A stretch of DNA of 64,000 nt from Leeuwenhoekiella palythoae (GTDB lineage Bacteria; Bacteroidota; Bacteroidia; Flavobacteriales; Flavobacteriaceae), in NCBI RefSeq assembly GCF_900130045.1, contig NZ_FQXT01000002.1:62001-126000 (forward strand), read 5' to 3'. The translations under genes were made by a program, and so were the position numbers. Each line of letters begins with the position of its first letter. The first letter of the stretch is position 1. This document shows positions 9,253-13,982 of the stretch, piece after piece. The notes under the pieces were generated by a model. The model was not told where the DNA came from, ran no database searches, and saw nothing but the letters and a program-made list of their open reading frames with translations.

Positions 9253-11334
9253 ATGAGTCCGAAACGATATACAATTACCGCCGCATTACCTTATACCAAT
9301 GGGCCAATTCACATTGGGCATTTAGCCGGAGTTTATGTTCCTGCAGATATTTATGCCCGCTACCTAAGAGGTATGGGTAAGGATGTTGCTTACATCTGCG
9401 GTAGTGATGAGCACGGCGTTGCCATTAGCATCAAAGCCAAAAAAGAAGGAATCACTCCACAAGAAGTGGTAGATAAATACCACAAGATTATCAAAGATTC
9501 TTTTGAAGATTTTGGGATTTCCTTTGACAATTACTCGCGTACTTCGGCACAAGTGCATCACGATACAGCTTCAGAATTTTTCAAAACGCTTTATGAAAAA
9601 GGAGATTTTATTGAGGAAGTGACCGAGCAGCTTTTTGATGCCGAAGCCAATCAGTATTTAGCCGATCGTTTCGTAACCGGAACCTGCCCAAAATGTGGCC
9701 ACGAAGAAGCTTACGGTGATCAGTGCGAAAATTGCGGATCTTCTTTAAATGCAACCGATTTAATTAATCCGAAATCAACCATTTCTGGTTCTAAACCCAT
9801 TTTAAAAGAAACCAGACACTGGTTCCTACCGCTGGATCGCTATGAAGATTTTCTGAAAAAATGGATTCTTGACGGGCATAAAAGCGATTGGAAACCGAAT
9901 GTTTACGGGCAATGTAAATCGTGGATCGATGAAGGTTTACGACCTCGCGCAGTAACCCGTGATCTCGATTGGGGAATTCCTGTGCCGGTAGACGGTGCCG
10001 AAGGTAAAGTGCTTTATGTATGGTTTGATGCCCCAATAGGCTATATTTCCTCAACCAAAGAATGGGCTTCGCGCGAAGGCAAAAACTGGGAAGACTACTG
10101 GAAAGCAGATGATACTAAACTCGTTCACTTTATCGGGAAAGACAATATTGTGTTTCACTGTATTATTTTCCCAAGTATGCTGGAAGCCGAAGGAAGCTAT
10201 ATTTTACCCGATAATGTACCGGCAAACGAATTTTTAAACTTAGAAGGCAACAAGCTTTCTACTTCAAAAAACTGGGCGGTTTGGTTGCACGAATATCTTG
10301 AAGAATTTCCGGGGCAGCAAGATGTATTGCGTTATACGCTTACGGCCAATGCTCCAGAAACGAAAGACAACGACTTTACTTGGGCAGATTTTCAGGCTAG
10401 AAATAACAATGAGCTAGTTGCAATTTTTGGGAACTTCATCAACCGTGTGGTGGTGTTGACCAATAAATATTATGAAGGAGCAATCCCGCAACCTTCTGAA
10501 TTTAATGCGGAAGATGAGCGCGTATTGGCCGAAATGAAAGCCTATCCGGCGGTGATCGCTAGTTCAATTGAACGCTACCGTTTCCGCGAAGCGCAAAACG
10601 AACTGATGAATGTTGCGCGTTTAGGAAATAAATATCTGGCAGATGCTGAGCCGTGGAAATCGGTTAAAACTGATCCTGAACGCACAAAAACGGTGATGTA
10701 CATCGCGCTGCAAATCGCCGGAACACTAGCTGTTTTGAGCGAACCGTTTTTACCCCACACGGCAAAAACGCTTAAGCACATGCTTAATATAGAGAGTGAA
10801 GATCCGCTTATGCAACTTCCTGAGCCGTTGAGCTGGGAGCTTCTGGGAGAGAAAATAGATTTACTTCCTGTAGGTCACAGCATCAACAAAGCCGCGCTTT
10901 TATTCAGAAAAATAGAAGACGAGCAAATACAAAAACAACTTGACAAATTAGAAGCGACTAAAATGAGTAATCAAGCCGAAAACACTCCGGTAACCCCACA
11001 AAAAGACACGATCGAATTTGATGATTTTACCAAGTTGGATTTACGTGTAGGAACTATTCTGGAAGCTGAAAAAATGGCTAAAACTAAAAAACTTTTAATC
11101 CTAAAAGTAGATACCGGTCTTGATGTGCGCACCATTGTTTCTGGTATTGCAGAAAGCTTTAAACCGGAGGACATCATAGGTAAGCAAGTAACCGTTGTCG
11201 CCAATTTAGCTCCGCGTAAATTGCGTGGCGTAGAAAGTCAAGGAATGATCTTAATGACCGAAGATAAACAAGGAAAACTCGTGTTTATGAATCCCGATAC
11301 GGCCGGAGTAAAGAACGGTGAAGCGGTGAGTTAA
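9253..11334 (+). CDS. metG: Methionyl-tRNA synthetase
   Basis: A 693-residue class I synthetase that charges tRNA-Met. It has HIGH at residues 20-23, the zinc knuckle [18 protein letters not shown] near residue 142, and the KMSKS counterpart KLSTSKN. A C-terminal tRNA-binding OB-fold domain begins near residue 585 with [17 protein letters not shown]. This is the longer, dimeric type that is normal in Bacteroidota. It has its own promoter. Its TAA stop directly abuts the first copy of a 77-bp palindromic element. Confidence 0.98.
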
Positions 11335-11411
11335 TGTCTCGACTGCGCTCGACAGGACAAGATTTGAATTAATAAGTACTTTATTTTGTCACATCGAGCG
11401 CAGTCGAGATG
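11335..11411. repeat. 77-bp palindromic element, copy 1
   Basis: Two 25-nt arms (11335-11359 and 11387-11411) surround a 27-nt AT-rich spacer. The arms are imperfect inverted repeats of each other with a perfect 16-bp core, TCTCGACTGCGCTCGA, and each core is also partly self-complementary (TCGA at both ends of a 14-nt unit). The element starts on the base after the metG stop. There is no T-tract at the stem base, so it is not a typical intrinsic terminator. An identically built copy lies after the GIY-YIG gene. Confidence 0.9.
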
Positions 11412-11428
11412 CCATCTAATACATTATT

Positions 11429-11743
11429 ATGAAAACTTATTTTGTTTACATACTTCAATGCGCTGATGGCTCATATTATACCGGACTGACTAATAATCTT
11501 GAATTGCGACTTGAACAACATAATTCTGGGACAAACCCTGCTAGTTATACCTATAGACGTAGGCCAGTATTTTTAGCCTTTAATCAAGATTTTAGTGATG
11601 TAAATCAAGCCATTCTGTTTGAGAAAAAGATTAAAAAATGGAGTGCAAAAAAGAAGAAAGCCCTTATTGATGGGGATTTCGATCTACTTCAAATTTTAGC
11701 GGAATGTCGAAATGAAACACACCATAAATTTAAACCTGATTAA
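11429..11743 (+). CDS. Single-domain GIY-YIG nuclease (COG2827 type)
   Basis: A 104-residue protein made of one GIY-YIG domain. Visible residues are V6-Y7-I8 for GIY, Y17-T18-G19 for YIG, the catalytic Arg R27 and the metal-binding Glu E65 in LFEKKIKKW, with a Lys-rich stretch SAKKKKALI after it. All catalytic positions look intact, so it should be an active metal-dependent DNA nuclease. It has no extra DNA-binding domain. The gene sits between two copies of a 77-bp palindromic element: the first ends 17 bases before the ATG, and the second begins on the base after the TAA. The distance from one element to the next is 409 bp. It has no operon partners, and its function is unknown. Confidence 0.85.
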   Translation: MKTYFVYILQCADGSYYTGLTNNLELRLEQHNSGTNPASYTYRRRPVFLAFNQDFSDVNQAILFEKKIKKWSAKKKKALIDGDFDLLQILAECRNETHHKFKPD

Positions 11744-11820
11744 TGTCTCGACTGCGCTCGACAGGACATAAAATAATACAAATCAGCCATTCCCGTGTCA
11801 CATCGAGCGCAGTCGAGATG
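11744..11820. repeat. 77-bp palindromic element, copy 2
   Basis: Same structure and orientation as copy 1: arms at 11744-11768 and 11796-11820 are base-for-base identical to the copy 1 arms, and the spacer is again 27 nt but unrelated in sequence. As in copy 1, it begins directly after a TAA stop codon within TTAATG. Conserved arms with a drifted spacer of fixed length suggest that the hairpin, not the spacer, is what is copied or maintained. Confidence 0.9.
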
Positions 11821-11846: not shown

Positions 11847-13982
11847 ATGCTTGCACTTCTCTCCTACCTAAAATCTTCGACCAATCTTCCGGAAAAGGGT
11901 ATCAAGAATGTGTTGCAACTTCTTGATGAAGATGCGACCATCCCTTTTATTGCACGTTACCGTAAAGAACGCACCGGGAATTTAGATGAAGTGCAACTGG
12001 GCGAAATTGTAAAGTTCAAAGAACAATTTGAGGCCTTAGAAAAGCGGAAAGCGACCATTCTAAAAGCTTTAGAAGAGCAAGAGGTTTTGACTGCAGAACT
12101 TCAGAAGCAAATAGAAAACACTACAGATACTACTGCCTTAGAAGATCTATATCTTCCGTATAAAAAGACGCGAAAAACAAAAGCAGATACCGCTCGTGAA
12201 CAAGGACTAGAACCGCTCGCCAAAATTATTATGGCGCAAAACACGCGCGATCTGGAACAAGCTGCCGGAAGGTTTTTAAACAACGAAGTTGCTTCGATCG
12301 AAGAAGCTCTTGAAGGCGCTCGCCACATCATTGCAGAATGGGTGAATGAGCGCAGCGATGTGCGCAACTATTTAAGGAACCAAATAGAACGTTACGCACA
12401 GATTGCTTCTAAGGTAGTGAAGTCTAAAAAAGACGATGAAAAAGCGCTTAAATACAAAGATTATTTTGATTGGGAGGAGGCTTTAAACCGCATTCCTTCA
12501 CATCGTTTTCTGGCACTTTCTCGTGCCGCTGATGAAGGTTTTGTTCGTTTAAAACTGGATATTGACACCGATCGCGCTTTAGCTCACATCGCCAATAGAA
12601 TGGTAAAATCACGCGGAGACTGTGCTGAGCACATTGAGCTTGCCGTTGCTGATGCTTATAAACGTTTACTGTTTCCGGCATTGAGCAACGAGGCTTTAAG
12701 CACTGCTAAAGAAAAAGCTGACGCAGAAGCGATCAGTGTTTTTGCAAAAAATTTACGCCAACTGCTTTTAGGTTCGCCACTTGGCGAAAAGCGCATCCTC
12801 GCGATCGATCCGGGTTTTAGAACAGGTTGTAAAGTGGTTTGTCTTGACGAAAATGGCGGTTTGCAGCATAATGAAACCATTTACCCACATCCTCCTAAAA
12901 ACGATACTAAAGGTGCAATGCGTAAGATCAGTTTTCTGGTAGATGCGCATAAGATCGAAGCCATCGCCATAGGTAACGGGACCGCCAGCAGAGAGACCGA
13001 GCAGTTTATCAAGCGTATGCAATTCAATCGGGATCTTGAAGTGTTTGTGGTGAGCGAAGCCGGTGCAAGTATTTATTCGGCTTCAAAGATCGCGCGAGAC
13101 GAGTTCCCCAATTATGATGTGACGGTTCGCGGTGCGGTTTCTATTGGTCGCCGACTTGCAGATCCACTTGCGGAGTTGGTAAAAATCGATGCAAAATCCA
13201 TCGGCGTGGGACAATATCAACACGATGTGGATCAAACCAAATTGAAAAACGAACTCGATCGCGTTGTTGAAAGCTGTGTAAACACGGTAGGTGTAAACAT
13301 CAATACTGCCAGCATTCCGTTGCTGAGTTATGTTTCTGGAATTGGACCAAAACTGGCTGAAAACATTGTAACCTTCAGAGATGAAAATGGTGCTTTCGCT
13401 TCGCGGAAAGAAATCTTAAACGTTCCACGTTTGGGTGCGAAAGCTTACGAGCAAGCTGCCGGTTTTTTACGTATTAAGAATGCTGAAAACCCATTGGATG
13501 ATTCCGCCGTGCATCCTGAGCGTTATGCTTTGGTTGAACAAATGGCTAAAAACCTAAAGCTTTCCGTAGCAGAATTGGTAGGCAATAAAACCGTGATCAA
13601 AGAATTAAGTCTCGAGGATTATGTTTCTGATGAAGTGGGCGAACTTACGCTGAAAGATATTTTAGACGAACTCGAAAAACCCGGTTTGGATCCACGAGAA
13701 CCGGCAAAGGCATTTACCTTCAATCAAAATATACATAAGATCGAAGATCTTGAGCCCGGTCAATTACTTCCCGGGATCGTGAATAACATCACAAACTTTG
13801 GCGCCTTTGTAGATATCGGCATCAAAGAAAGTGGACTAATTCACATTTCTAACTTGGCTGATGGTTTTGTGAGTGATGTAAATGCGCACGTAAGTTTACA
13901 AGAACAAGTTGTGGTTAAAGTACTTGAGGTAGATATCAAGCGTAAGCGCATCCAGCTTAAATTGCATAGACTGAATGCTTAA
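11847..13982 (+). CDS. tex: Tex-family RNA-binding transcription accessory protein
   Basis: A 711-residue Tex protein. The order is an N-terminal helical Tex domain (IPFIARYRKERTGNLDE is diagnostic), a YqgF/RuvX-like nuclease-fold domain (ILAIDPGFRTGCKVVCLD), helix-hairpin-helix repeats (LLSYVSGIGPKLAENIV), and a C-terminal S1 RNA-binding domain (LPGIVNNITNFGAFVDIG). Tex associates with RNA polymerase and RNA; its role is still only partly defined. It overlaps the next gene by eight bases, implying co-translation. Confidence 0.95.
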   Translation: MLALLSYLKSSTNLPEKGIKNVLQLLDEDATIPFIARYRKERTGNLDEVQLGEIVKFKEQFEALEKRKATILKALEEQEVLTAELQKQIENTTDTTALEDLYLPYKKTRKTKADTAREQGLEPLAKIIMAQNTRDLEQAAGRFLNNEVASIEEALEGARHIIAEWVNERSDVRNYLRNQIERYAQIASKVVKSKKDDEKALKYKDYFDWEEALNRIPSHRFLALSRAADEGFVRLKLDIDTDRALAHIANRMVKSRGDCAEHIELAVADAYKRLLFPALSNEALSTAKEKADAEAISVFAKNLRQLLLGSPLGEKRILAIDPGFRTGCKVVCLDENGGLQHNETIYPHPPKNDTKGAMRKISFLVDAHKIEAIAIGNGTASRETEQFIKRMQFNRDLEVFVVSEAGASIYSASKIARDEFPNYDVTVRGAVSIGRRLADPLAELVKIDAKSIGVGQYQHDVDQTKLKNELDRVVESCVNTVGVNINTASIPLLSYVSGIGPKLAENIVTFRDENGAFASRKEILNVPRLGAKAYEQAAGFLRIKNAENPLDDSAVHPERYALVEQMAKNLKLSVAELVGNKTVIKELSLEDYVSDEVGELTLKDILDELEKPGLDPREPAKAFTFNQNIHKIEDLEPGQLLPGIVNNITNFGAFVDIGIKESGLIHISNLADGFVSDVNAHVSLQEQVVVKVLEVDIKRKRIQLKLHRLNA

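Follow-up and report, generated by a model that had tools for sequence, protein, structure and literature searches.

RESULTS

Two repeat elements flank a small GIY-YIG gene

Between two genes of Leeuwenhoekiella palythoae that we take to be metG and tex, one gene for a GIY-YIG protein of 104 residues is flanked by two elements of 77 bp (Table 1). In the window, by which we mean the whole stretch of 64,000 nucleotides that was analysed, metG ends with TAA at 11334 and element 1 begins at the next base, and tex starts at 11847, 3' of element 2. The first-pass annotation had described two elements of the same size and orientation with identical arms and unrelated spacers, and the coordinates bear this out, as the arms recur as exact direct repeats of 29 nt and 26 nt, 409 bp apart, and the two 27-nt spacers show no relation to each other. 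It was also right that only the nuclease gene lies between them. Its observation that a core is inverted within each element holds in that two units face each other, and is refined here in that each arm is a complete tagged unit. Both window elements do start directly after a stop codon, as had been pointed out; this is no general rule, however, as other copies of the unit sit inside genes that are presumably bioF and trpF, and the suggested preference of an element-plus-gene unit for stop codons is not supported. With up to three mismatches allowed, the core matches five times in the window (four times exactly), compared with 0.30 matches expected.

Table 1. Features of the interval between metG and tex, with positions in the window
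Feature	Position	Strand	Remarks
Element 1, 77 bp	11335..11411		Two tagged hairpin units, face to face, tags inward
Unit 1a	11335..11359	-	TGTC tag, stem TGTC/GACA, core GAG-CGCAGT-CGA
Spacer of element 1, 27 nt	11360..11386		
Unit 1b	11387..11411	+	TGTC tag, stem CATC/GATG, core as in unit 1a
Small GIY-YIG nuclease gene, 104 aa, TAA stop	11429..11743	+	Y17, R27, E65 intact
Element 2, 77 bp	11744..11820		Arms and orientation as element 1, spacer different
Unit 2a	11744..11768	-	Identical to unit 1a
Spacer of element 2, 27 nt	11769..11795		
Unit 2b	11796..11820	+	Identical to unit 1b

Other identities for the locus were considered and rejected. No intrinsic terminator was predicted there; the three Rfam matches were all to microRNA families and far below gathering scores; the protein had no PHROG and no PADLOC match, which leaves no known phage or defence family; and none of the 19 phage records that matched covers 80% of the protein, so that close phage relatives were rejected as well.

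By its sequence, the window gene can be assigned to the GIY-YIG domain family (PF01541; E=1.1e-15, 58.1 bits, cut-off 22.6) and is UPF0213-like. All 63 aligned proteins share Y17, T21, R27, E65 and K76, and the claim that the catalytic residues are intact agrees with the presence of conserved catalytic-type Y17, R27 and E65, the roles of which in the window protein we assume. Among solved structures, two UPF0213 proteins (1zg2, 1ywl) are related to it in sequence. A structure model based on an alignment of 63 sequences, in which the window protein was combined with 62 others selected out of 71, had a pLDDT of 92 and replaced a single-sequence model with a pLDDT of 72; nearest to it were UPF0213 proteins, followed by SLX1 (E 0.004).

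The repeat unit covaries as a hairpin

Each 25-nt unit begins with TGTC and one base; a 4-nt stem arm and GAG lead into the loop, which is followed by CGA and the complement of the stem arm. Read as a hairpin, the unit has an outer stem of 4 bp, then a GA.GA tandem mismatch and a single G.C pair that closes a loop of 6 nt. In DNA, G.A mismatches in tandem can be stable. The outer stems differ between the two arms of an element (TGT/ACA versus CAT/ATG). Whole 77-nt elements fold far better than shuffled sequences (z of -8.5 and -6.0) and single 27-nt pieces, with standard DNA energies, no better than shuffles, and the case for a hairpin in each unit therefore rests on covariation and not on energy.

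Three classes of hairpin recur around related genes (see below): C6 (GAGCGnAGTCGA, the class of the window), C5 (GAGCyTGTCGA) and L (GAGT...GTATCGA, with a long loop). Over the loci fetched for this count, the outer stem is fully paired in 71 of 87 C6 cores (25 distinct stems; shuffled mean 4.7), in 33 of 40 C5 cores (shuffled mean 6.6) and in 101 of 118 L cores (shuffled mean 37.0). When the 4.03-Mb host genome was searched with at most one mismatch, the core matched 17 times (16 exact, one with a single mismatch) and the reversed pattern did not match. Among 17 distinct cores of the C6 form in this genome, 15 carry a [CT]GTC tag and 16 form all four outer pairs with eight different stems, while shuffling of the 3' arms left on average 2.8, and at most 7, fully paired. 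Several host-genome units are solo, without a partner, so the pairing is within the unit. In the fetched loci, pairs of units are head-to-head (22, as are both window elements), tail-to-tail (27) or head-to-tail (21), and in 20 of the 22 head-to-head pairs the outer stems differ, which indicates that the single unit, and not a long hairpin formed by the pair, is the structural entity.

Related GIY-YIG genes are bracketed by matching hairpins

A protein search gave matches in 71 of 149 genomes. Of the matches, 30 loci were obtained directly from this search and 60 regions were fetched, the remaining, mostly weak, rows being left out. A type-A unit is one that fits its pattern exactly, without mismatch, and such units were counted within 250 bp of the gene. 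Of 99 GIY-YIG ORFs (95 loci), 46 had such a unit upstream, 42 had one downstream and 36 had units on both sides, whereas among 146 control genes (at least 150 aa and over 600 bp from the GIY-YIG gene) there was one upstream, five downstream and none with units on both sides. Five wrong tags never gave units on both sides of the 99 ORFs, one of them matching twice upstream. The RAYT-like arrangement proposed in the first-pass annotation, one nuclease with its cognate palindromes, is supported, also by two of the tests which that annotation had named, on empty metG-tex sites and on copy number (below). No type-A unit lies upstream of 53 of the 99 ORFs, which counts against the explanation that we favour; by eye, many ORFs without a type-A unit show other palindromes.

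The class of the hairpin follows the relatedness of the protein. On a protein tree of 76 of the 99 ORFs (those with E above 1e-20 or over 160 aa were left out), which has 101 columns and 38 of its 72 inner branches unresolved, the hairpin class changes 13 times, compared with a mean of 40.2 when classes were shuffled, and none of 200 shuffles was as low. Units are present on both sides in 35 tree rows, on one side in 12 and on neither in 29; where both sides carry a named class (31 rows), it is the same class in 31 of 31. The nearest relative in another genus shares the hairpin class in 35 of 40 cases (null mean 15.5, maximum 27).

It could be argued that the bracket is meaningless because REPs accumulate in intergenic gaps; units do lie in many intergenic places of the host genome, and a broader detector (described below) had some match to a tagged hairpin in 16 of 174 control stretches. 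Given that neither the control genes nor the wrong tags ever yielded a bracket, and that hairpin class matches protein relatedness, we regard such a coincidence as barely credible and have rejected it on the first two grounds.

The tree also contains a clade of 11 proteins without a type-A class (L068, L074, L076, L080-L083, L085-L087, L089), several of which (L086, L087, L089) are flanked by another palindrome, GGTGGCTTCGAGAGCCTCAGCCACC or a close form of it. The long loops of many L-class units hold palindromes of their own that differ between genomes (for example G036 and G041), much as would result from insertion of a second hairpin.

The host genome has ten GIY-YIG genes, six of them small. 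The window gene and one other (L022, C10:524912) have type-A units, of two different classes, and palindromes of other kinds adjoin the small genes L018 and L019 by eye. The loci of the four longer genes (L024-L027) contain no type-A unit. The small genes L020 (G000:C5:318854) and L023 (G000:C6:335203) lie at duplicated tRNA ends, as does a GIY-YIG fragment in another genome (L253, G101:C34:316); this setting, with a repeated 5' part of the tRNA or a 3' end plus a terminator-like palindrome, differs from the REP bracket.

The metG-tex copy appears to be inherited and often lost

The metG-tex interval could be read in 11 genomes of the same genus (G007 and G012, where it could not, are outside this number). 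The gene is present in three of them (G000, G005, G006) and absent from eight (G001, G002, G003, G004, G008, G009, G010, G011), and empty alleles thus exist. By eye, nothing but the first few bases of element 1 is left in G011, the tex part of which is 96% identical, and a unit on the right that resembles the one in G006 is retained in G002, G003 and G010; such seeming remnants at four of the eight sites without the gene point to loss. Between G000 and G005, the nuclease and the first 300 aa of tex are both 81% identical, and the shared position together with this ordinary, tex-like divergence makes inheritance and loss likelier than gain. The metG-tex copy thus looks inherited and often lost and not recently mobile. 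It had been suggested that element and gene hop together as a 409-bp cassette; the shared site, the divergence and the remnants do not support this, and hopping of the whole unit at metG-tex was rejected on the history of the site.

Repeat copy number goes with the class of the gene

The 149 genomes were scanned for each hairpin class with patterns that require TGTC and miss CGTC-tagged units. Matches were present in 59 genomes for C6, 34 for C5 and 42 for L; reversed-pattern controls gave none for C6 and C5 and scattered single matches for L. At least five copies of C6 are found in 13 of 14 genomes with a gene of the C6 class and in 21 of 135 without (p 7e-9), with 8 of 8 versus 9 of 141 for C5 (p 5e-9) and 13 of 19 versus 8 of 130 for L (p 2e-9). 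These p values ignore kinship, and the gene classes rest on manual assignment, made with the tree and in part with the flanking units, which are themselves included in the copy counts. Within the family the p values are 2e-6, 1.5e-6 and 3e-7 for C6, C5 and L. The C5 count includes G003 and G004, which have broken gene copies outside the tree, and leaves out G019 and G043, which belong to the same clade and have variant hairpins; addition of the latter two gives 8 of 10 versus 9 of 139 (p 2e-7), and tree rows only, plus these two, give 6 of 8 versus 11 of 141. At a threshold of nine copies the numbers are 9 of 14 versus 15 of 135 for C6, 7 of 10 versus 2 of 139 for C5 and 12 of 19 versus 7 of 130 for L. 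Own-class correlations are 0.53, 0.69 and 0.60 for C6, C5 and L and cross-class correlations 0.08-0.34, so that each gene class goes best with its own hairpin, and the palindromes are not equally common in genomes that lack the nuclease.

Some observations counsel restraint. Copy number is modest here, which again counts against our preferred explanation, and the 21 genomes rich in C6 without a C6-class gene hold orphan repeats. In G101, 49 L units are accompanied by no more than a tRNA-linked GIY-YIG fragment, and G082, G133 and G123 have repeats and no small GIY-YIG protein in a PF01541 search, although drafts may hide genes. When eleven repeat-rich genomes without a class gene were searched with PF01541, one of ten loci examined had any type-A unit.

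Copy number also bears on two other explanations for the spread of the units. According to the first, a RAYT (Y1) transposase moves them in trans. A Y1_Tnp match is present in 54 of the 149 genomes, with one weak match in the host genome, and shows a weak association with L richness (p=0.048, 149 genomes), which disappears within the family (p=0.31). Presence of Y1 is, however, unrelated to richness in C6 (p=0.31) or C5 (p=0.79), in 30 Y1 loci the 500 bp to each side hold no type-A unit, and the tag is TGTC, not GTAG. We therefore consider action of a RAYT in trans highly improbable, and it was rejected on the absence of units at Y1 loci and of an association with C6 or C5.

According to the second, the GIY-YIG gene is selfish and homing-like, with the REPs as its landing or cutting sites, and the REPs are moved by something else. 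GIY-YIG domains occur in homing enzymes, one relative weakly matches a group I intron endonuclease model (below the cut-off), and gene and units are present as tandem copies in L059 and L064, all of which would fit such a passenger. However, the units on both sides are complete and the target is not split, one site is common to three species with ordinary divergence, and copy number follows the class of the gene. The strict form, a free-standing homing endonuclease that splits its own target, was rejected on the complete units, and we judge the passenger explanation as a whole improbable.

Orthologous genes differ by single units

In-frame units inside bioF and trpF differ between species. In trpF, G009 has an uninterrupted C6-type unit, and G004 has at the same place a C6-type unit with a 24-bp C5-type unit inside it, exactly after GAGCG and with one adjacent base different. 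In bioF, both G004 and G010 carry 24-bp units at the same point of the loop (after GAGTG and GAGCG). Such 24-bp units that interrupt the loops of other units after GAG[C/T]G indicate that units move. A MITE or other IS-derived element has terminal inverted repeats and a target-site duplication; the elements have inverted arms, and comparison of the nested G004 and G010 alleles by eye showed no evident duplication. Of 242 units in the fetched loci, four have GAG[C/T]G immediately in front of the tag and eight have it at other distances of up to 12. A search for closely spaced units in the 149 genomes gave 18 matches in nine genomes, six with the junction GAGCG^TGTC, some of which may descend from one event, and the others with different spacings, tandem copies included. 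From these sequence comparisons it seems that what moves is one hairpin with its tag and complete stem (about 24 bp), and that hairpin loops are a preferred target.

The two L. palythoae sites, G000:C5:472406-472825 (bioF, L264) and G000:C8:826162-826581 (trpF, L278), have in-frame hairpin units in conserved metabolic genes, and both spots vary in length and repeat content across the genus.

The main rival of our reading is one in which the nuclease keeps or trims hairpins without moving them. Such an enzyme would cut its cognate hairpins to clear structures that block replication, or would trim transcripts, and the units would spread by another route. Bracketing, tree and copy number would show the same class-specific association in this case; the predicted fold resembles that of SLX1, which its PDB titles describe as acting on branched DNA; the metG-tex copy appears to be vertically inherited; and covarying stems fit a structure in DNA or RNA. 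Keeping alone, however, leaves unexplained why the gene sits between units and why insertions occur at one exact position in the loop, and we consider this rival unlikely, though clearly less so than the other alternatives.

Bracketed GIY-YIG genes outside the Bacteroidota

When plasmid records were searched by tblastn with the L018 protein, 33 of them matched, mainly from rhizobia and sphingomonads and also from Neisseria and Azospirillum, 14 of which were fetched, chosen for variety. In A. lipoferum the neighbours of the GIY-YIG gene are sufB and sufC, and CGTCATCCCCGCGAAGGCGGGGAT occurs to either side of it; such genes lie between CGTC-tagged REPs in A. lipoferum, S. meliloti, N. aromaticivorans and N. 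gonorrhoeae. In the 14 plasmid records and 80 genome loci a GIY-YIG ORF was present in 93 of 94. A broader detector for [CT]GTC-tagged hairpins found these upstream in 47 of the 93 loci, downstream in 46 and on both sides in 36, a few of the last looking poor by eye (for example L173 and L211); L154-L166 and L192-L233 were scanned by script only. Eleven control tags matched on both sides in 0-14 of the 93 loci, 14 being reached by [CT]CGT, which can overlap the CCGTC form, and the others giving at most 6; one-sided matches of control tags reached 23 of 93. Both-sided hairpins were found in 10 of 14 plasmid records and, with phylum labels that may be wrong for MAG loci, in 5 of 43 Bacteroidota, 4 of 9 Pseudomonadota, 5 of 6 Spirochaetota, 3 of 4 Bacillota, 1 of 2 Chloroflexota, 2 of 3 unlabelled loci, the single locus of each of six other phyla, 0 of 5 Planctomycetota and 0 of 1 Fibrobacterota. 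The value for the Bacteroidota means that bracketing is not universal, or is not always seen by the broader detector. The one Rickettsiales MAG locus (L205) did not have hairpins on both sides. On a plasmid of Planktothrix agardhii (L144), a GIY-YIG gene with TGTC-tagged hairpins on both sides lies between an annotated type IIL restriction-modification enzyme and the DISARM gene drmA.

DISCUSSION

We propose that the locus is a REP system in which a resident small GIY-YIG nuclease takes the place of the RAYT tyrosine transposase; of the readings considered this is the best, and we hold it to be probable. That gene and hairpin are functionally linked in some way is very probable. Family, fold and association suggest that the nuclease recognises and cuts the hairpin, and we infer, as a further step, that its cutting may cause the insertions of units; that it drives their spread is a view towards which we lean only slightly. 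In such a scheme the gene would be resident and mostly vertically inherited, and its product would recognise the cognate hairpin by the TGTC tag, the GA.GA internal-loop stem and the class-specific loop, in single-stranded or extruded DNA. It would cut at the foot of the hairpin and in hairpin loops, and single units freed in this way could be taken up where the loops of other hairpins had been cut, or at other sites, and would spread by this means. A tyrosine-DNA intermediate, as formed by RAYTs, is not expected for a GIY-YIG enzyme, and we know of no strand transfer by enzymes of this family. More tentatively, and with the chances perhaps a little short of even, small GIY-YIG nucleases may be dedicated, clade-matched mobilisers of CGTC/TGTC-tagged REPs across phyla, and would then form a second, chemically different class of REPtron in which single hairpins of about 24 nt are moved by cutting at the foot and inserted into resident loops after GAG[C/T]G.

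The small GIY-YIG nuclease is thus a strong candidate for the enzyme that has been missing for a common class of bacterial repeats and that would process, and might spread, the units, and since genes are bracketed, clades match and copy numbers track the gene, the question of the missing transposase becomes directly testable. If the proposal is true, it would give a role to a widespread family of small proteins. The window protein is like SLX1 and the UPF0213 and YhbQ-type proteins, in sequence (UPF0213) and in predicted fold; we take the latter two types to be one family. No association of UPF0213/YhbQ proteins with repeats was found in the literature searched, which included part of the text of PMC7017083, and among open-licence PMC papers we found none that links GIY-YIG proteins to REPs, although one Moraxella paper (PMC9465073) contains both terms.

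The closest described repeats are the CGTC-tagged REPs, which are known from five phyla, with hosts among the alpha-Proteobacteria, Neisseria and Bacteroidetes, and apparently have no dedicated transposase (Di Nocera et al., 2013; PMC3733652). As described in the sections of that paper drawn upon here, they share with the window units a CGTC or TGTC tag beside the hairpin and the occurrence of copies inside genes, and are described as predominantly head-to-head dimers; both window elements are head-to-head, and the pairs in the fetched loci are of all three orientations. They have a stem of 8-9 bp and a loop of 4-5 nt, whereas the window units have a 4-bp stem, the GA.GA mismatch, one further base pair and a 6-nt loop; stem and loop in the window are therefore unlike those of the four families described, although forms with a perfect stem bracket relatives of the gene. 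The same sections report no dedicated transposase, while in the window a nuclease gene is bracketed. They also equate the neisserial dRS3 and the Rickettsia palindromic elements with CGTC REPs (PMC3733652), and a matching set of hairpins brackets the neisserial GIY-YIG gene.

In the RAYT REPtrons and REPINs, as far as the account in PMC8266576 was used here, an enzyme gene is likewise flanked by palindromes that are found elsewhere in the genome, the hairpins have a tetranucleotide tag at their foot, and their stems contain mismatches, which are required in the E. coli REP. A RAYT REPtron has a Y1 HuH enzyme and a GTAG tag, whereas the window has a GIY-YIG enzyme (PF01541) and TGTC, and it therefore falls outside that group. 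The anatomy is REP/RAYT-like in its tagged hairpins, stem mismatches, clade-matched classes, orphan repeats and vertical inheritance, the enzyme is unrelated, and, if our proposal is true, a system of repeat plus enzyme arose with an enzyme unrelated to the RAYTs.
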